Positions 13,032-24,257 of a stretch of 64,000 nucleotides of DNA are shown here, piece by piece. Source of the DNA: Candidatus Dormiibacterota bacterium (GTDB lineage Bacteria; Acidobacteriota; Polarisedimenticolia; Gp22-AA2). The notes below the pieces were generated by a model. That model was not told the DNA's origin and made no database searches. It worked only from the letters and a program-made list of their open reading frames with translations. Position 1 is the first letter of the stretch. Each line of letters begins with the position of its first letter. Location of the stretch: positions 1-64,000 of the forward strand of contig DASQAT010000004.1 of assembly GCA_035635555.1 (NCBI GenBank), given 5' to 3'. Position numbers and translations under genes: made by a program.

Positions 13032-13307
13032 TCAGCCCCCCGCCACCGCCGGGATGATGATGACCTCGTCGCCGTCGGTGACCGGGGTGGTGGAGCCGTC
13101 GAGCAGCCGGACGTCGCTGTCGTTGACGTAGATGTTGACGAAACGTCGGATCTCGCCGCGCGGACCGCGCAGCTTGCCGCGCAGACCCTCGTAGCGCGTC
13201 TCGAGCCCTTCGAGAATGTCGCCTAGAGTCTCCCCTTCGAGCAGGACCGATTCCGCGCCTTCCGTCTGTCGGCGAAGCACCGAGGGAATTCTGACCTGGA
13301 CAGGCAT
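13032..13307 (-). CDS. ThiS/MoaD-family ubiquitin-like sulfur carrier
   Basis: This 91-residue beta-grasp protein ends in Gly-Gly (AVAGG), the tail that E1-like enzymes adenylate and convert to a thiocarboxylate. Internal features match the family: VRIPSVLR near the start, GETLGDILEGLE, FVNIYVNDSDVR and a DGDEVIIIPA strand before the tail. It is the last gene of the SAM-riboswitch operon, 26 bp after the threonine-synthase homologue. With the E1-like protein and cysteine desulfurase of the same operon it would form a protein-thiocarboxylate relay. The acceptor pathway is inferred from context (homocysteine synthesis); a role in molybdopterin or thiamine is less likely because no genes of those pathways are nearby. 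Confidence 0.9.
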   Translation of the reverse strand: MPVQVRIPSVLRRQTEGAESVLLEGETLGDILEGLETRYEGLRGKLRGPRGEIRRFVNIYVNDSDVRLLDGSTTPVTDGDEVIIIPAVAGG

Positions 13308-13333: not shown

Positions 13334-14680
13334 CTAAGCGAGCGGCCGACCGGATGAAGGGGGCGCCGCGGTGGCGGGGCGCCCGGATGAAGTGGAAAGG
13401 GACGGCCCCGGGGGCGGGGCGTCGCTCGCCTTGGAGAGCGCGGCCTCGACGGCCGCGTCGGACAGGACGCGCTCGAACGCGTCGAGCCGCGGCTCGATGA
13501 TCGGATGGGCCGCGGCGGTCGACACGAGCGCGTCGGTGGTCTTGAGCCCGTTGCCGGTGATCACCAGGACGATCGGCTCGTGGCGCGGAATGCGGCCGGA
13601 AGCGATGAGCTTCCGCGCCGCGGCCACGGTGACGCCGCCGGCGGTCTCGGCGAAAATCCCCTCGGTCTCGGCCAGGAGCCTGATGCCGTCCACGAGCTCG
13701 GCGTCGGTCACGTCCTCCGCGAAGCCGCCGCTCCGGCGGATGGCGCGCGCGGCGTAGTAGCCGTCGGCCGGGTTGCCGATGGCGAGGCTCCTGGCGATCG
13801 TCCTGGCCTTGACGGGACGGATCTCGCCGCTGCCGTCCTTGACCGCGGCCACGATCGGATTGCAGCCGCGTGGCTGGGCGCCGTGCAGCCGCGTCGTCCC
13901 TTCGTCGATGAGACCGAGGCGGGTCAGCTCGTCGAAACCCTTGCCGATCTTGGTGAGCAGCGATCCGCCCGCCATGCAGCACACCACGTGGGCCGGCCGC
14001 TTCCAGCCGAGCTGTTCGGCGATCTCGAACCCCACGGTCTTGGAGCCTTCGCCGTAGAACGGGCGCAGGTTGACGTTGACGAATCCCCAGCCGAAGCGGT
14101 CGGCAATCTGGCTGCACAGTCGGTTGACCTGGTCGTAGTCCCCGGCGACACCGACGAGGCGCACGCCGTAGACGGTCGTGCCGAGGATCTTGGCGGCCTC
14201 GAGATCCTCGGGAACGAGGATGCAGGTGTCGAACCCGTGGCGCACCCCCTGCGCGGCGACGGAGTTCGCCAGGTTGCCGGTGGACGCGCACCCCACGGTG
14301 GTCATGCCGAACTCGCGCGCCTTCGTGAGGGCGACCGACACGACCCGGTCCTTGAACGACAGGGTGGGGAAGTTCACCGCGTCGTTCTTGACGTACAGCT
14401 CGTCGACGCCGAGGCGGCCGGCCAGTCTCGCGGCGCTCACCAGGGGGGTGTACCCGACCTCCTGTCCCAGGATCCGGTCGCCGTCGATCGGCAGCAGCTC
14501 GCGGTAACGCCACATCGATCGGGCGCGCGTGGCGACCGTCTCCCGCCCGAAGGTCCGGCGCAGCCGGTCGTAGTCGTAGGCGACCTCCAGCGGCCCGAAG
14601 CACTCCTCGCAGATGGAGCGCGGCGCCGTCTCGTACTCGGTCGCGCACTCCCGGCAGGTCAACCCGCTCACGTAGCTCAT
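13334..14680 (-). CDS. Threonine synthase homologue, possibly an O-phosphohomoserine sulfur transferase
   Basis: This is a 448-residue fold-type II PLP enzyme. The N-terminus is a zinc-ribbon-like segment with Cys9/Cys12 and Cys24/Cys27, as in many threonine synthases. Lys110 in NFPTLSFKDRVV is the PLP lysine; classical enzymes usually read NPTGSFKDRG here, so the substrate loop differs. ASTGNLANS and GGSLLTKIGKG supply cofactor-phosphate contacts. By annotation rules it would convert O-phosphohomoserine to threonine. The operon (E1-like, desulfurase, ThiS-like carrier) under a SAM-I riboswitch suggests instead beta/gamma-replacement with carrier-bound sulfur to give homocysteine (inference). 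The C-terminal ~30 residues are Pro/Ser-rich and probably disordered. The start overlaps the upstream gene by 4 bp. Confidence 0.85.
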   Translation of the reverse strand: MSYVSGLTCRECATEYETAPRSICEECFGPLEVAYDYDRLRRTFGRETVATRARSMWRYRELLPIDGDRILGQEVGYTPLVSAARLAGRLGVDELYVKNDAVNFPTLSFKDRVVSVALTKAREFGMTTVGCASTGNLANSVAAQGVRHGFDTCILVPEDLEAAKILGTTVYGVRLVGVAGDYDQVNRLCSQIADRFGWGFVNVNLRPFYGEGSKTVGFEIAEQLGWKRPAHVVCCMAGGSLLTKIGKGFDELTRLGLIDEGTTRLHGAQPRGCNPIVAAVKDGSGEIRPVKARTIARSLAIGNPADGYYAARAIRRSGGFAEDVTDAELVDGIRLLAETEGIFAETAGGVTVAAARKLIASGRIPRHEPIVLVITGNGLKTTDALVSTAAAHPIIEPRLDAFERVLSDAAVEAALSKASDAPPPGPSLSTSSGRPATAAPPSSGRPLA

Positions 14681-15843
14681 GACGCCCCCGCGATCTCGTC
14701 GACGGCGGCGGCCGCGCGGCGCATGTCCTCGGGGGTCGTCAGGATCCCCGCGCTCAGCCGCACAGTCCCCTGCGGGAAGGTCCCGAGGTGCTTGTGCGCG
14801 TAGGGGGCGCAGTGCAGCCCCGGGCGCACCGCGATGTCGAACCGCTCGTCCAGGATGGCGCCGACCTCCGAGGGGGCGAACCCGGGCACATTGATCCCCA
14901 CCAGCCCCACGCGACGCTCGCCTCCTCGTTCGGCGATGAGGCGGTCGGCGCCGTACCACTCCAGGCTGCCGCGGCTCTGGAGAGACGTCACGAACGTGCC
15001 GAGGAGCGCGCGCTCGTGCGCCAGGACCGACTCGACGCCGCGCTCCAGGAGCAGGCGCACCCCCTCGCGCAGCCCGGCGATGCCGAAGACGTTGGGCGTG
15101 CCCCCTTCCAGGCGGTGCGGGAACTCCTCCGGCTGGACGGGCCGCGTCGAATCTCCGCCGGTGCCCCCCTCGCGCCACGGACGCACCTCGGCCCTCTCGC
15201 CGACGGCGAGGCCGCCGGTCCCGGTCGGACCGAGGAGCCCCTTGTGCCCCGTGAACGCCAGGAGATCCACGGCGTCCCGCTCCATGTCGATCGGCACGAC
15301 GCCGGCGCTCTGCGCCGCGTCGACCAGGAGCAGGAGGTCGCGCTCGCGCGCCATCCGGCCGATGGCGCCGACCGGCTGGATCGTGCCTGTGACGTTCGAC
15401 ACGTGCGTCAGCGCCAGGAGGCGCGTGTTCTTGCGGATGGCGCGTCTCACCTCGTCCGGGTCGATGAGATGATCGGAGGTGGCCTCCAGCCGCGTGAGGG
15501 TGATGACCCCGTCCTTCTCGAGCTGGTTCAGCGGCCGCGACACCGAGTTGTGCTCCAGGACCGACGTGATCGCGTGATCCCCCGCGCGCAGGATCCCCTT
15601 GATCGCCATGTTCAGCCCGTCGGTGGCGTTGTGGCCGAAGACGATGCGCTCCGGGTGCTTGAAGCCGAGGAGCCGGGCCAAAAGACGCCGCGTGTCGTTG
15701 ATCATTCCTTCCGCCTCGGCCGCGAGGCGATGGCCGCCGCGCCCCGGATTGGCGCCGCTCTGGCGGACGAACGCCTCCATCCCCCGATACACCTGCTCGG
15801 GTTTGGGATACGACGTGGCGGCGTTGTCGAGGTAGATCGCCAT
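14677..15843 (-). CDS. Cysteine desulfurase-family aminotransferase class V
   Basis: This 388-residue PLP enzyme should release sulfur from cysteine as a persulfide. Visible are the N-terminal YLDNAATSYPKP, the His-containing EHNS of the active site, the PLP lysine in FTGHKGLLGPTGTGG near residue 205, and the catalytic cysteine in VRPGLHCAPYAHK near 345. The RPGLHCAP form places it in the SufS-like or 'cysteine desulfurase family protein' group. It lies between the E1-like gene (8-bp gap) and the threonine-synthase homologue (4-bp overlap), so it is the likely sulfur donor for the ThiS-like carrier encoded at the end of the operon. Confidence 0.9.
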   Translation of the reverse strand: MAIYLDNAATSYPKPEQVYRGMEAFVRQSGANPGRGGHRLAAEAEGMINDTRRLLARLLGFKHPERIVFGHNATDGLNMAIKGILRAGDHAITSVLEHNSVSRPLNQLEKDGVITLTRLEATSDHLIDPDEVRRAIRKNTRLLALTHVSNVTGTIQPVGAIGRMARERDLLLLVDAAQSAGVVPIDMERDAVDLLAFTGHKGLLGPTGTGGLAVGERAEVRPWREGGTGGDSTRPVQPEEFPHRLEGGTPNVFGIAGLREGVRLLLERGVESVLAHERALLGTFVTSLQSRGSLEWYGADRLIAERGGERRVGLVGINVPGFAPSEVGAILDERFDIAVRPGLHCAPYAHKHLGTFPQGTVRLSAGILTTPEDMRRAAAAVDEIAGAS

Positions 15844-15851
15844 GATTCCCC

Positions 15852-16904
15852 TCAGGTCCCCACGTACCGCGCGTAGATCGACTTGGCGAGCGCCGGGTCC
15901 TTGGTCCCGGAGATGATGGCGCGGCCGTCGGCGAACACGGTCAGGCGGTACTGGTCGATGTCGGCGCGCACCAGGAAGCGGTTCTTCTCGATCGCACCGA
16001 TCGGACCGAGACGCTTCGCCACCTGGTCGAGGTCGAGCGTGATCCCGTCGCGGCGCCGGATCTGCACCGCGTTCCGGCCGCAGAGCGTGGCCGTGTCGGA
16101 ACCGGAGGCCCCCTCGAGATAGGGGAACTCGCGTCGCACGCAGCAGGGGCAGTCCGTCTCGCGCGGCGGCAGGTCGACGAGGCTCTGCCGTCCCTCCCAG
16201 ACGTCGAGGACCGCCATCTTCCGGGTCACGCGCTCGCGCCTGCCGCTCAGGATCTTGAGCGCCTCGGCCGCCTGCAGGGACGCGACCAGCCCGACGATCG
16301 GCCCCAGCACTCCGGCCGTGTCGCAGGTGGGGGACAGGCCGGGCGGGGGAGCGCTCTCGAACACGCAGCGCAGGCAGGCGGTCTCGCCCGGCAGGATCGG
16401 GAAGGTCAGACCGTACGATCCCACGCAGGCCCCGTAGATCCAGGGTGTGCCTGTCTTGACGGCGAAGTCGTTGAGCAGGAACCGGGCGTCGAAGTTGTCG
16501 GTCGCGTCGAGGATCAGATCGAAGCCGCCGAGGAGCCTGTCGATCGTCGAGGCGTTCAGGTCCTCGACGATCCCCTCGACCTGCACCAGCGAGTTGGCGG
16601 CGCGCAGCTTGTTCACCGCCGCCACCGCCTTGGGCAGGACGGCGCGGGCGTCCTCCTCGTCGAACAGGATCTGACGTTGCAGGTTGGATTCCTCGACGAA
16701 GTCCCGATCGATGATCCGCAGCCGCCCCACCCCCGCCCGGGCCAGGAGGGAGGCCTGCACCGTGCCCAGAGCACCGCAGCCGACCAGGACCGCCTTCGCG
16801 GACATCAGCCGCGCCTGGCCCTCGTGGCCTATCTCCTCGAACAGGACCTGACGGGAGTAGCGGGCCGGGATCAAGGGCTGCCCGGCCGTATCCTTCGTGG
16901 TCAA
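15852..16904 (-). CDS. ThiF/MoeB/HesA-like E1 adenylyltransferase
   Basis: This 350-residue enzyme should adenylate the C-terminal Gly of a ubiquitin-like carrier. RYSRQVLFEEIG opens the family fold; GCGALGTVQASLLARAGVG is the ATP-binding loop; RDFVEESNLQRQILF and the DATDNFDARFLLND Asp follow. Zinc cysteines are visible as CLRC and CPCC. The C-terminal ~80 residues hold TLCGRNAVQ and no rhodanese domain. The start is TTG at 16904, chosen because AAGGAG sits six bases upstream and the next in-frame start at 16931 lies inside the riboswitch terminator T-tract. It is the first gene of the operon, so its translation begins just past the attenuator. Confidence 0.9.
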   Translation of the reverse strand: MTTKDTAGQPLIPARYSRQVLFEEIGHEGQARLMSAKAVLVGCGALGTVQASLLARAGVGRLRIIDRDFVEESNLQRQILFDEEDARAVLPKAVAAVNKLRAANSLVQVEGIVEDLNASTIDRLLGGFDLILDATDNFDARFLLNDFAVKTGTPWIYGACVGSYGLTFPILPGETACLRCVFESAPPPGLSPTCDTAGVLGPIVGLVASLQAAEALKILSGRRERVTRKMAVLDVWEGRQSLVDLPPRETDCPCCVRREFPYLEGASGSDTATLCGRNAVQIRRRDGITLDLDQVAKRLGPIGAIEKNRFLVRADIDQYRLTVFADGRAIISGTKDPALAKSIYARYVGT

Positions 16905-16923: not shown

Positions 16924-16962
16924 AAAAACAAAAAACCTCTTCGAGACGACGTCGAAGAGGTT
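16924..16962 (-). terminator. Intrinsic terminator (expression platform of the SAM riboswitch)
   Basis: On the minus strand an 11-bp perfect stem (AACCTCTTCGA with TCGAAGAGGTT, arms 16952-16962 and 16934-16944) with a 7-nt loop is followed by TTTTGTTTTT. It lies about 20 nt after the riboswitch aptamer and about 20 nt before the E1-like start codon. A pairing of GAGAC in the aptamer's 3' flank with GTCTC in the terminator is a plausible antiterminator (inference). Confidence 0.93.
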
Positions 16963-16982
16963 CGGGTGAACGACTCCTTCGC

Positions 16983-17110
16983 CTTCCGTCTCTCATCTGC
17001 CGGGGCTCGAAGACCCCGCAGGAGTTGGCACCGGCCATCCCGAACGGTCCGGGATCGGTTGCCGTGGGATCATCGGGCCTGTCCCTCCCCCACTCTCGAT
17101 AAGATGGAAG
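16983..17110 (-). ncRNA. SAM-I (S-box) riboswitch aptamer
   Basis: Read on the minus strand, the conserved S-box blocks occur in order and spacing: CTTATCGAGAG, GGGGGAGGGACAGGCCCGAT with a GATGA kink-turn partner, CCCACGGCAACC, a P3 stem ATCCCG/CGGGAT, CCGGTGCCAACTCCTGC, a P4 stem GGGG/CCCC with a UCUUCGA-type loop, and GCAGATGAGAG closing P1. P1 extends to CTTCC/GGAAG at the two ends. GGCC in P2 can pair with GGCC after P3, the known pseudoknot. With the terminator just downstream it should switch transcription off when S-adenosylmethionine is abundant. It controls the E1-like, desulfurase, ThrC-like and ThiS-like genes. Confidence 0.96.
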
Positions 17111-17164: not shown

Positions 17165-17193
17165 AAATTACCACGGGGTTTGAGACCTGTCAA
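17165..17193 (-). promoter_or_regulatory. Promoter of the SAM-riboswitch operon
   Basis: On the minus strand there is a perfect -35 TTGACA (17193-17188), a 17-nt spacer, then TAATTT (17170-17165) as a weaker -10. The predicted start near 17158 gives about 48 nt before the riboswitch aptamer. Confidence 0.65.
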
Positions 17194-17311: not shown

Positions 17312-17415
17312 ACGCCGCACGTCTCGCATAGGAGGGCGTGAAGTGAAGCCGGAAACGCCCCGGATCGTTCCGTTGCATGATGCGGCACTCGAAGGATCGA
17401 ACGGACCGAATCCGG

Positions 17416-17444
17416 TTGACAGGCTGCATTCCTCCCCGTATATG
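17416..17444 (+). promoter_or_regulatory. Proximal leuA-operon promoter
   Basis: A perfect TTGACA (17416-17421), a 17-nt spacer and TATATG (17439-17444). Transcription would begin near 17451, about 24 nt before the GTG at 17475, which has a GAGGGAG ribosome-binding site. This placement is the main reason for preferring 17475 over the in-frame upstream GTG at 17343. Confidence 0.7.
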
Positions 17445-17474
17445 AACAGACACCTCGCAGTCGAGGGAGACACC

Positions 17475-19150
<1,676 letters not shown>

Positions 19151-19151
<1 letters not shown>

Positions 19152-19209
19152 CGCAGGCCGGTCCGGCCTGATGTTCACGTCGGACCGTCGTCCCTGCGCT
19201 TTGTTTTTA
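19151..19209 (+). terminator. Intrinsic terminator after leuA
   Basis: Outer arms GCGCAGG (19151-19157) and CCTGCGC (19193-19199) enclose inner arms CGGTCCG and CGGACCG, followed directly by TTTGTTTTT. It would end or attenuate transcription between leuA and the downstream leuD/leuB genes, so part of the operon may need read-through or a separate promoter. Confidence 0.75.
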
Positions 19210-19260
19210 GAGGGACCGTGAAGGAACTGGAAGAGCAGTCGAGCGCTGTCCGGCTCCGTG

Positions 19261-19328
19261 GTTCTTTCTGCCGCCGGAGGGGGAGGTCATCATGGGCGTG
19301 TCCCACGCTGACCGCCGGCGGCAGGAAC
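19261..19328 (+). promoter_or_regulatory. Hairpin in the leader of the leuD-like gene
   Basis: CTGCCGCCGG (19268-19277) pairs perfectly with CCGGCGGCAG (19315-19324), extended by GTTC/GAAC after a 3-nt bulge. The loop contains a GGGGGAGG stretch and the ATG at 19292, so the structure could mask a ribosome-binding site. It follows the leuA terminator, suggesting post-terminator control of leuD-leuB (inference). Confidence 0.45.
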
Positions 19329-19354
19329 AACCACGGGGGAGGGAATCCACGACC

Positions 19355-19732
19355 ATGAGAGGCAGGGCGCACGTCTACGCGGGGGCGCGCATCAGCGCCG
19401 ACGACATCATTCCCCTGCGGCACCAGAACGGGGGTGCCGAGGAGGACCTCGGCGCCGGCATCGCAGCGGTCGTGGCGGTCTCGTTCTCGCGCCTGTTCTT
19501 CAGGAATGCCCTCAACAACGGCTTCATCGTCGTGGAGTGTCCCGAGGCGGTGAGGCAGGCGGCGGTCGGAGATCTCCTGGAGGTCGATCTGCGGGACGCG
19601 GCGGTGAGGAACCTGACGAAGGGGGAATCCTACCGCTTCGTGCCGCCCACGCCGTTCGCGATGGAGATCCTCGAGGCCGGCGGTCTCCTGCCGTACGTCC
19701 TGAGACAGACGACGGGGGCCTCGAGTGCCTGA
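19355..19732 (+). CDS. leuD: Internally shortened LeuD-like protein (3-isopropylmalate dehydratase small subunit)
   Basis: This 125-residue protein matches LeuD at both ends: an N-terminal [19 protein letters not shown], then [24 protein letters not shown] and VECPEAVR, and a C-terminal [12 protein letters not shown]. The middle of the family (about 40 residues, including the GxNFGxGSSREHA signature of the aconitase swivel) is absent; the sequence jumps from [10 protein letters not shown] to [11 protein letters not shown]. Such a product may be inactive. The large subunit gene leuC is also missing here. Another start at ATG 19292 would add 21 residues unlike LeuD. It overlaps leuB by 8 bp, so it may survive as a coupling cistron, or be an assembly deletion. 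Confidence 0.7.
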
Positions 19733-20825
19733 GGCGAAGCGCTCGCGCGTTGTCCTCCTGCCGGGCGACGGCATCGGCCGCGAGGTCGTCGCCGAGGCCG
19801 TCCGCGTGCTGGAGATGGTGGCGCGGCAGGCGGGCGTGGTCCTCGAGATGGAGGAGCACCCCGTGGGGGGTGCCGCGTACGACAGCGTCTCGGAGCCGCT
19901 GCCGCAAAAGACCTTCGAGGCGGCCCGCGCCGCGGATGCGGTCCTGCTCGGGGCCGTGGGCACGCCGAGGCATGACGGACTGCCGCGACACCTTCGCCCG
20001 GAGCAGGCGCTCCTGGGGCTGCGTCAGGGGCTCGGGGTCTACGCGAACCTGCGGCCCGTGAGACTCCACCCGGCCCTCCTGCAGGCGTCCCCCCTGCGGC
20101 CGGACGTCGTGGGGGGCACGGATCTGCTGATCGTGCGCGAGCTGACAGGGGGGCTCTACTTCGGTTCGCCGCGCGGTGTTTCCGGTGAGGGGGATGAACG
20201 CCTGGCCACGAACACCATGGCCTACACCGTGGCGGAGATCCGGCGCATTGCACGGGTGGCGTTCGAGGCGGCGCGCGGCAGGAGAAGGAAGGTGACGTCG
20301 GTGGACAAGGCGAACATCCTGGAGGTCTCGCAGCTCTGGCGCGAGGTGGTGAGCGACACCGCCCGGGAGTACCCGGACGTCCTCCTCGAGCACCTGTACG
20401 TCGACAACGCGGCCATGCAGCTTTTGGCCCGCCCCAGGGACTTCGACGTCGTCCTCACCGAGAACACGTTCGGCGACATCCTCAGCGACGAGGCGGCCAT
20501 GCTGGCCGGCGGGATCGGGATGCTGCCGTCCGCCAGCCTGGGAGAAGGGCCCGGTCTGTACGAGCCGGTGCACGGGTCGGCGCCGGAGATCGCCGGTCGC
20601 GGCATCGCCAACCCGCTGGCGGCGATCCTCTCGGCGGCCATGCTGCTGCGCCACTCGCTCGGCCTGCCGCGCGAGGCCGCGCGCGTCGAGGAGGCGGTCG
20701 GAAGGGTCCTGGACGACGGGGCGCGCACGGCCGATCTGGCGCGACCGGGACAGAAGTCGATCGGCACGCGCGACATGGGGGACGTGGTGTGCGGCGCCCT
20801 CGAGCGCGGCAGGCGGGCCTCGTGA
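19725..20825 (+). CDS. leuB: 3-isopropylmalate dehydrogenase
   Basis: This is a 366-residue NAD-dependent dehydrogenase of the isocitrate/isopropylmalate family, the third step of leucine synthesis. [10 protein letters not shown] opens the nucleotide fold; [15 protein letters not shown] carries the substrate-binding arginines; [25 protein letters not shown] and the metal-binding DNAAMQL / [13 protein letters not shown] blocks follow, then [18 protein letters not shown] start at 19725, overlapping the leuD-like gene by 8 bp. Length and motifs are complete, unlike its upstream neighbour. Confidence 0.93.
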
Positions 20826-20842
20826 GCCGGGGGAAGGGGACG

Positions 20843-22654
20843 GTGGCGCCGACGCAGGACACGATCGGAATGAAGACGGCCTCGGCAACGGCGGCGCCCG
20901 CCCCCGGGCCCGAGATCGAAATGCGCGGGGCGAAGATCCTGATCGAGAGCCTGCTGCGCGAAGGCGTGAGCACGATCTTCGGCTACCCGGGCGGGGCGAT
21001 CCTGCACGTCTACGACGAGCTGGCGCACGCGCGCGACCGGCTGAGCCACGTGCTGGTGCGCCACGAGCAGGGGGCCGTGCACGCCGCCGAGGGGTATGCC
21101 CGCTCGACCGGGAAGGTCGGCGTCGTCATGGTCACCTCCGGTCCCGGGGCGACCAACTGCGTGACCGGCCTGACGAACGCGCTGATGGACTCGACGCCGA
21201 TCGTCTGCATCACGGGGCAGGTGGCGACCCACCTGATCGGCAACGACGCATTCCAGGAGGCGGACGTGGTCGGCATCACGCGCCCGTGCACCAAGTACAA
21301 CTACCTGGTGAAGGACGTGCGCGATCTGGCGCGCGTGGTGAAGGAGGCGTTCCACATCGCGCGCAGCGGGCGGCCGGGGCCGGTCGTCATCGATCTGCCG
21401 AAGGACGTCACTGCGGCGCGGACGAAGTTCGCGTACCCCGACAGGGTCGATCTCCCGTCGTACCGGCCGGCCGGCGACGGCGACATCGCCCGGGTCCGCG
21501 AGGCGGTCGCGCTGATGGTGAAGGCCGAGCGGCCGATCCTCTACGTCGGGGGGGGCGTGGTCAACGCCGACGCCGCCGACGAGCTCCGTCTCCTGGCGGA
21601 GGCGCTCAACCTGCCGGTCACGCCGACCCTGATGGGGCTCGGCGGGTTCCCGGGCGGCCACCCGCTCTGCCTCGGCATGCTCGGCATGCACGGCACCTAC
21701 GCCGCCAACATGGGCGTCTCCAACGCCGACCTGCTCATCGCCATCGGGAGTCGTTTCGATGATCGCGTCACCGGCCGCCTCAAGGATTTTGCGCCAGGGG
21801 CGAAGGTGATCCACGTCGACGTCGATCCGTCCTCCATCAACAAGAACCGCGTCGTCGAAGTCGGCATCGTCGGCGACGCGCGCCGGGTGCTGCGGCAGAT
21901 GCTCGACGTGCTGGCGCGCGAGGTGCGTCTCGAGGGGCCGCCGCCCCGCGCGGAGTGGTGGCCGCAATTGCGCGAGTGGTCCGCCGCCCACCCGTACCGC
22001 TACAAGAAACGCCGCGGTGTGATCATGCCGCAGGCGGTCATCGAGGAGCTCAGCCGGCTCACCGACGGAGAGGCAATCGTGGCTTCCGACGTCGGCCAGC
22101 ACCAGATGTGGGTGGCCCAATACTACGGCTTCAAGAGGTCCCGTCAGTGGCTGAACTCGGGAGGCCTGGGGACGATGGGCTACGGATTCCCGGCGGCCAT
22201 CGGGGCGGCCAAGGCGCACCCCGGAAGGACGGTGATCTGCGTCACCGGCGACGGCTCCTTCCAGATGTGCATCCAGGAGATGGCGACCGCCATCCAGGAG
22301 AAGGTCGACGTCAAGGTGGTCATCATCAACAACAACTACCTCGGGATGGTGCGCCAGTGGCAGGAGCTGTTCTACTCCCGCACCTACAGCGAGGTCGGGC
22401 TGGAATGGCTGCCGGACTTCGTGAAGCTGGCGGAGGCCTATCACGCGAAGGGTCTCAGGGCCACGAGGCCGGAGGAGATGCGTCAGGTCCTGGAGACGGG
22501 GCTCGGGATGCCGGGTCTGGTCGTGATGGACATGATCGTGTCGCAGGAGGAGGGGGTCTACCCGATGGTGCCGGCCGGCGCGTCCCTGCAGGAGATGGTC
22601 CTGGAGCCCGCGGAAGACGGCTCGGAGGAACCGGAGCCGAGGGACCTGGCATGA
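20843..22654 (+). CDS. ilvB: Acetolactate synthase large (catalytic) subunit
   Basis: This is a ThDP-, FAD- and Mg-dependent enzyme of about 603 residues for valine/isoleucine synthesis. Motifs: [15 protein letters not shown] near the N-terminus, the catalytic Glu in [27 protein letters not shown], and the ThDP motif [17 protein letters not shown]...[15 protein letters not shown]. The start is uncertain: GTG at 20843 follows GGGGAAGGGGA; GTG 20822 or ATG 20870 are possible, differing only in a disordered leader. It ends in a 4-bp ATGA overlap with ilvN. Confidence 0.93.
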
Positions 22655-23211
22655 ACGGCGACGGAACGCGCCATATCCTGTCGATCCTGGTCGAGAACCG
22701 CTTCGGCGAGCTCTGCCGTGTCGTCGGCCTGTTCTCGGGGCGCGGCTACAACATCGACTCGCTGTGCGTGGCGCCGACGTCCGACCCCGCGTACTCGCGG
22801 ATCATCCTGACGACGAACGGCAACGACGTGATCATGGAGCAGATCCTCAAGCAGATCGGAAAGCTCGTCCGGGTGCTCGAGGTCATCGATCTGAACGAGG
22901 TGAACCACGTCGAGCGCGAGATGGCGCTCCTGATCGTGAGCACGCGCACGCCGTCCGAGCGCCAGGAAGTGCTGAATCTCGCGGGAGTGTTCCGCGCCAA
23001 GGTGATCGACATCTCGACCGACGCCATCACCATCGAGACCACCGGCAGCCAGGACAAGGTCGACGCGCTCCTGGGGCTCCTGCAGCCGCTCGGCATCAGG
23101 GACATCGTGCGGACGGGGCCGGTGGCGATCCCGCGGATCAGCGCCGCGCGGGAGTCGGAGGTGGACCGGGGAGAGGCGGCCGACGTGCCCGAGGCGGAGA
23201 GCGCAGTCTAA
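22651..23211 (+). CDS. ilvN: Acetolactate synthase small (regulatory) subunit
   Basis: This 186-residue protein has an N-terminal ACT domain ([31 protein letters not shown]) that binds valine in characterised family members, and a C-terminal ALS_ss_C domain (about 85-160) with [17 protein letters not shown] and [15 protein letters not shown]. It activates and confers feedback inhibition on the catalytic subunit. Its ATG overlaps the ilvB stop by four bases, ensuring stoichiometric synthesis. The last ~20 residues are acidic and variable. Confidence 0.93.
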
Positions 23212-23225
23212 TCAGAGGAGTCGAC

Positions 23226-24257
23226 GTGGCGGAAGGAAAGCTGAACATCTTCTACGAGAAGGACGCGGAGCCCGGGCGCCTGAGGGGGAAGAGGATCGCC
23301 GTCCTGGGATACGGCAGCCAGGGGCACGCGCACGCCCTCAACCTGAAGGAAGGCGGTCACACCGTCGCCGTCGGCCTGAAGCCGGGCAGCGCCTCGCGCG
23401 CCAAGGCCGAGGGGGCGGGTCTCTCCGTGATGGACACCGCCGAGGCGGCGCTCTGGGGCGACATCGTCATGATGCTCGTCCCGGACGAGCTGGCTCCGGA
23501 GACGTACGAGAAGGAGGTCGCGCAGGGGCTGCGCGCCGGCAAGCACTTCGCCGTCGCCCACGGCTTTTCGATCCACTTCAGGAAGATCGTCCCGCCGAAG
23601 GACGTGAACGTCTTCATGGTGGCGCCGAAAGCGCCCGGGCATCTCGTGCGGCACGAGTTCACCAAGGGGGCCGGGGTGCCGATGCTCATGGCGGCGCACC
23701 AGGATCCCTCCGGGGACACGCGGGCGGTGGCCCTGGCCTACGCCTGCGCCATCGGCGGCGGCCGGGCCGGCGTCATCGAGACGACCTTCAAGGACGAGAC
23801 CGAGACCGATCTGTTCGGCGAGCAGGCGGTCCTGTGCGGCGGGCTGTCGGCTCTGATCACCGCCGGCTTCGAGACGCTGGTCGAGGCGGGTTACCCGCCG
23901 GAGATGGCCTACTTCGAGTGCCTGCACGAGATGAAGCTGATCGTCGACCTGATCTACGAGGGCGGCATCACGAACATGCGCTACTCGGTGAGCAACACCG
24001 CGGAGTACGGCGACCTGACGCGCGGACCGCGCATCGTGACCGACGAGACACGCAGGGTGATGCGCGAGCTCCTCGCCGGCGTCCAGTCGGGGGCATTCGC
24101 CGACGAGTGGATGGCGGAGCACAAGGCCGGCAAGCCGAACTTCAAGCGGCTCGAGGCGGCCGGCAGGGAGCACCTCATCGAGAGGGTGGGGGAGAGGCTG
24201 CGCGGCATGATGCCCTGGCTGGGGAAGAACCGTCTGGTCGACAGGAGCAGGAACTGA
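23226..24257 (+). CDS. ilvC: Ketol-acid reductoisomerase (class I)
   Basis: This 343-residue enzyme carries out the isomerisation and NADPH reduction of acetolactate. [15 protein letters not shown] near residue 24 is the nucleotide loop; [27 protein letters not shown] and the metal-binding [17 protein letters not shown] follow, then [18 protein letters not shown]. The short C-terminus identifies class I. GTG start at 23226 with GAGGAG five bases upstream. The stop and the next gene's ATG share one base (TGATG). Confidence 0.94.

Follow-up and report, generated by a model that had tools for sequence, protein, structure and literature searches.

The window analysed here, a 64-kb stretch of Acidobacteriota DNA, carries a SAM-I (S-box) riboswitch on its minus strand ahead of genes that are not classically counted as methionine genes. 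Why should these genes be placed under the control of SAM? The preliminary description of the locus held that the riboswitch reassigns the physiology of the operon, and gave no destination. The claim holds: the genes agree with the MetM/MetO route known from the literature, so that the "non-classical" genes would be methionine genes of an already described kind. We consider it very likely that the operon is a MetM/MetO-type methionine operon under SAM-I transcription attenuation.

The SAM-I aptamer and its expression platform

The RF00162 covariance model was run on the minus strand, as had been proposed earlier, and gave a significant match. The full-length model (positions 1-108) aligned to 17105-16990 at 83.6 bits (E = 2.8e-18 for the window), above the gathering score of 44.4 bits, and helices P1-P4 were all found; the riboswitch is complete, as the preliminary description had it. 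This aptamer is the sole Rfam match within the window, and RF00162 was found to match nowhere else in the 4.28-Mb genome. Inspection of the RF00162 alignment revealed a 4-bp pseudoknot between L2 (CAGG, 17081-17078) and J3/4 (CCUG, 17022-17019) on the minus strand. A pseudoknot had been described before, correctly as to its presence but with the wrong sequence (GGCC). The wording "unusually clean" was overstated, as the relatives score 48-89 bits and a score of 83.6 bits is ordinary among them. The element is like other RF00162 riboswitches in its full-length aptamer, pseudoknot and terminator platform; no structural difference was found, and only the target operon is non-classical.

To assess covariation, 26 SAM-I elements were aligned. 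Changes on both sides were seen at 28 of 35 pairs, and 94.4% of cells were paired, compared with 75% in shuffled and 38-47% in slid controls, a test that leans towards the model because the alignment was fitted to RF00162. From its sequence, the element at 17105-16990 would bind SAM.

The aptamer is followed by an intrinsic terminator (16924-16962, minus strand; hairpin -14.9 kcal/mol). Its 11-bp stem, formed by the arms AACCUCUUCGA/UCGAAGAGGUU at 16962-16934, runs into the T-tract TTTTTTGTTTTT, in agreement with the earlier account. An antiterminator is predicted at 16942-16992 on the same strand (GAGACGG...GUCUC, predicted fold -18.9 kcal/mol), which uses the last bases of the P1 3' strand. 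In the predicted folds terminator and antiterminator are mutually exclusive. Five relatives are predicted to form both folds as well, those of G006 and G014 from a different sequence. At low SAM, the 5' arm of the terminator would be taken up by pairing with the P1 3' edge and the linker, and the operon would be transcribed; at high SAM, P1 would be closed, the 11-bp terminator would form, and transcription would be halted ahead of the first gene. A candidate promoter, TTGACA - 17 nt - TAATTT with a weak -10 (17165-17193, minus strand), was read in the sequence; the consensus scan did not list it because the -10 is poor.

Operon genes and the proposed route to methionine

The four genes of the operon all lie on the minus strand. 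The first (15852-16904) encodes a ThiF/MoeB-family E1-like adenylyltransferase (PF00899, 248 bits), and its start is most likely the TTG at 16904-16902, behind AAGGAG. It is followed by a cysteine desulfurase of class-V aminotransferase fold (am_tr_V_EF2568; 14677-15843; TIGR01977, 427 bits, above its cut-off), a threonine-synthase homologue (P0003, referred to below as PALP; 13334-14680; PF00291, 230 bits) that is a candidate MetM-like homocysteine synthase, and a MetO-like sulfur carrier of the MoaD/ThiS/SAMP family (13032-13307; PF02597, 62.5 bits) with the C-terminus ...PAVAGG. The end of the carrier gene, at 13032, is 18 bases away from a convergent ORF, so the operon most likely stops there. 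On the plus strand, divergent from the operon, ORF reading indicates an apparent leuA, leuD, leuB, ilvB, ilvN, ilvC row at 17343-24257.

In the MetM/MetO system of Streptomyces, homocysteine is produced by a ThrC homologue, whose substrates are O-phosphohomoserine and a thiocarboxylated carrier; the carrier gene adjoins that of the ThrC homologue, and a SAM riboswitch precedes them (Hasebe et al., 2024, AEM 90:e01247-24; see PMC12172450). The same core is found here, with O-phosphohomoserine from ThrB, and on this ground we assigned the operon to the MetM/MetO type. The locus differs in its phylum and in having E1-like and cysteine desulfurase genes in the same operon ahead of PALP. The likeness drawn here is one of described route and gene context.

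We infer that the operon enzymes form a thiocarboxylate and use it to make homocysteine. Judging from the protein families, the desulfurase would draw sulfur from cysteine, and the E1-like protein would adenylate the C-terminal Gly-Gly of the carrier, which would then receive the sulfur as a thiocarboxylate. By analogy with MetM/MetO, the ThrC homologue would exchange the phosphate of O-phosphohomoserine, supplied presumably by the homoserine kinase of the genome, for the carrier sulfur. The resulting homocysteine may be methylated by a MetH-like enzyme. Since the sulfur entry step sits under the SAM riboswitch, SAM would feed back on its own sulfur entry. MetH-like (methionine synthase-like) proteins are present; at one such locus (G000:C3:95010-98039) the B12 reactivation domain match is weak and is interrupted in this genus.

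A protein thiocarboxylate is also the sulfur donor for homocysteine in the HcyS/HcyD/HcyF/MetY route of Wolinella, where MetY carries out the condensation with O-acetylhomoserine. Here a ThrC homologue would stand in for MetY, and MetX, the O-acetylhomoserine maker, was not found in this genome (no TIGR01392 match). Among 41 class-level genomes, those with a close MetM-like gene coincide exactly with those that have SAM-I over the cut-off, six in number, but these six represent only three genera, so that the co-occurrence is suggestive and not independent. A weak SAM match in G027 (34 bits, below the gathering score) was not counted as SAM-I. A convincing MetX is found in none of the six and in twelve of the other genomes. 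MetA was not found in 13 genomes tested, nor was a DUF39 homocysteine synthase found in any of the 41. The present genome is a 59-contig assembly, so a gene scored absent may merely be missing from the assembly. A plant-like cystathionine route from O-phosphohomoserine via PF01053 enzymes is possible, because the genome encodes four such enzymes, none above an equivalog cut-off, whose substrate is uncertain.

The MetM-like clade and its gene neighbourhoods

PALP could be read as an ordinary threonine synthase in a SAM-controlled operon, perhaps balancing O-phosphohomoserine between threonine and methionine. Its nearest solved structures are threonine synthases, and it scores 265.7 bits with the thrC equivalog TIGR00260 (cut-off 167.1), a model that fails to separate the MetM-like clade from ThrC. 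Furthermore, a cyanobacterial MetM relative was reported to have threonine synthase/deaminase activity in vitro (PMC12172450). We nevertheless regard this reading as quite improbable. An asd-thrB-thrC cluster is located elsewhere in the genome, each gene over an NCBIfam cut-off (thrB, for homoserine kinase, over an equivalog cut-off, which provides for O-phosphohomoserine supply), making a threonine role of PALP redundant, and a third ThrC-type protein is also encoded. SAM repression of threonine synthesis would, moreover, leave the carrier, E1 and desulfurase unexplained.

The phylogeny also argues against an ordinary threonine synthase. In a tree of 90 sequences with mostly Clostridia in the outgroup, all 46 MetM-like sequences (relatives of PALP at roughly 51% identity or more, a sample biased because the scan relied on two peptide patterns from the query's own family) were split off from canonical ThrC by a branch with 100/100 support, so that PALP groups with carrier-linked and SAM-riboswitch-linked homologues. 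The clade spans Acidobacteriota, Verrucomicrobiota, Planctomycetota, Actinomycetota, one cyanobacterium, Chloroflexota, Nitrospinota, Rokuibacteriota and archaea. Among the clade-fixed changes is the active-site loop TGNL (Leu at position 137, STGNL) versus TGNT/TGNA elsewhere, in addition to other sites. An actinobacterial relative from Nonomuraea (51%) with a carrier and SAM-I falls inside the clade.

The assignment of PALP as MetM-like agrees with its neighbourhoods. A carrier gene lies directly 3' of PALP in nearly all clade loci, compared with 0 of 36 Clostridia ThrC loci. The carriers of the clade have GG at the C-terminus, some with short tails; residues beyond Gly-Gly occur in L068, L069, L070, L075, L076, L096, L101 and L103, and would need trimming before activation. 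In L069 the carrier and E1 genes are separated by a rhodanese-like ORF. In one Dehalococcoidales locus (L104, 2223-2462) no carrier gene was found adjoining the MetM-like gene, which has a NIL-domain protein after it and a PF01053 enzyme before it.

Of the 36 bacterial loci in the clade, 27 have a SAM riboswitch upstream, which is SAM-I in 24 and SAM-II in 3. Neither SAM-I nor SAM-II was found ahead of ThrC in any of the 36 Clostridia loci, where the one strong match sits 5.7 kb downstream. L068, L069, L070, L080 and L101 showed no SAM riboswitch of any class before PALP, even at E up to 0.05, and none was found for the archaeal clade members. The riboswitch stands before the E1 gene, ~2.4 kb from PALP, in the window's own group and mostly within 0.5 kb of PALP in the others. 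In G014, from another family of the same class, it separates the E1 gene from PALP, standing immediately 5' of PALP; sat (identified by eye as ATP sulfurylase) comes next. A strong match to RF02514 (5' ureB sRNA) on a Verrucomicrobiota contig (L073, 1619-1911, minus strand) probably reflects similarity to the ureB coding sequence.

The three SAM-II (RF00521) loci belong to Acidobacteriota: L075 (5652-5725), L076 (2670-2743) and L078 (4931-5005 and 5075-5146). SAM-II stands ahead of PALP and carrier just where SAM-I does in other loci, whereas its fold and sequence are unrelated to those of SAM-I. The two SAM-II-like elements of L078 are arranged in tandem and score 36.3 and 28.2 bits, the second below the gathering score.

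In the CysO/CysM/Mec system of Mycobacterium, a carrier thiocarboxylate and a PALP enzyme yield cysteine, and a JAMM protease is required. The parts list (carrier, E1, PALP) is the same in outline, and a comparable route here would make cysteine from O-phosphoserine or O-acetylserine. We give this reading very little chance of being right: PALP belongs to the ThrC subfamily and not to CysK/CysM (TIGR01136, 35.6 bits vs. a cut-off of 344), no JAMM-like protease was seen in the operon, the operon's own desulfurase consumes cysteine, and SAM riboswitches of two classes control the genes across phyla. Just as improbable is an operon for sulfur relay in general (to thiamine, molybdopterin and tRNA thiolation) that is controlled by SAM only since those pathways use SAM-dependent enzymes; the E1-like protein is indeed the genome's only PF00899 match over the cut-off beside four ThiS-family carriers, but what is conserved from phylum to phylum is a core of PALP and carrier, from which E1 or desulfurase is often absent, and the G014 riboswitch stands past the E1 gene.

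Proposed SAM control of sulfur entry in the MetM-like clade

Neither the RNA class nor the pathway is new. As far as our sources show, two things appear to be new: the presence of E1 and desulfurase genes within the same SAM-I operon, and, in some Acidobacteriota, the use of SAM-II instead of SAM-I ahead of the PALP and carrier genes. In the literature covered, which was partial, we found none that links SAM-II with Acidobacteria and methionine.

As the sole PF00899 E1 of a genome with four ThiS-family carriers, the E1 of the window may serve further carriers. SAM control of the operon could by this path extend to thiamine and molybdopterin synthesis. A broader proposal is plausible but falls somewhat short of probable, namely that a MetM/MetO module made self-contained by an E1 and a cysteine desulfurase of its own was put more than once under unrelated SAM switches (SAM-I for the majority of phyla and, among some Acidobacteriota, SAM-II, in one case in tandem), and that SAM gates several sulfur pathways here through an E1 shared with the thiamine and molybdopterin carriers.

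Because annotation reports a threonine synthase, MoeB/ThiF, a cysteine desulfurase and MoaD, such genomes seem to lack the capacity for methionine synthesis. Evidence from the riboswitches, the carriers and the clade nevertheless points to such synthesis in Acidobacteriota, Verrucomicrobiota, Planctomycetota, Actinomycetota and archaea (in archaea without the riboswitch). Two SAM riboswitch classes ahead of the same gene pair provide an independent, regulation-based argument for this function.
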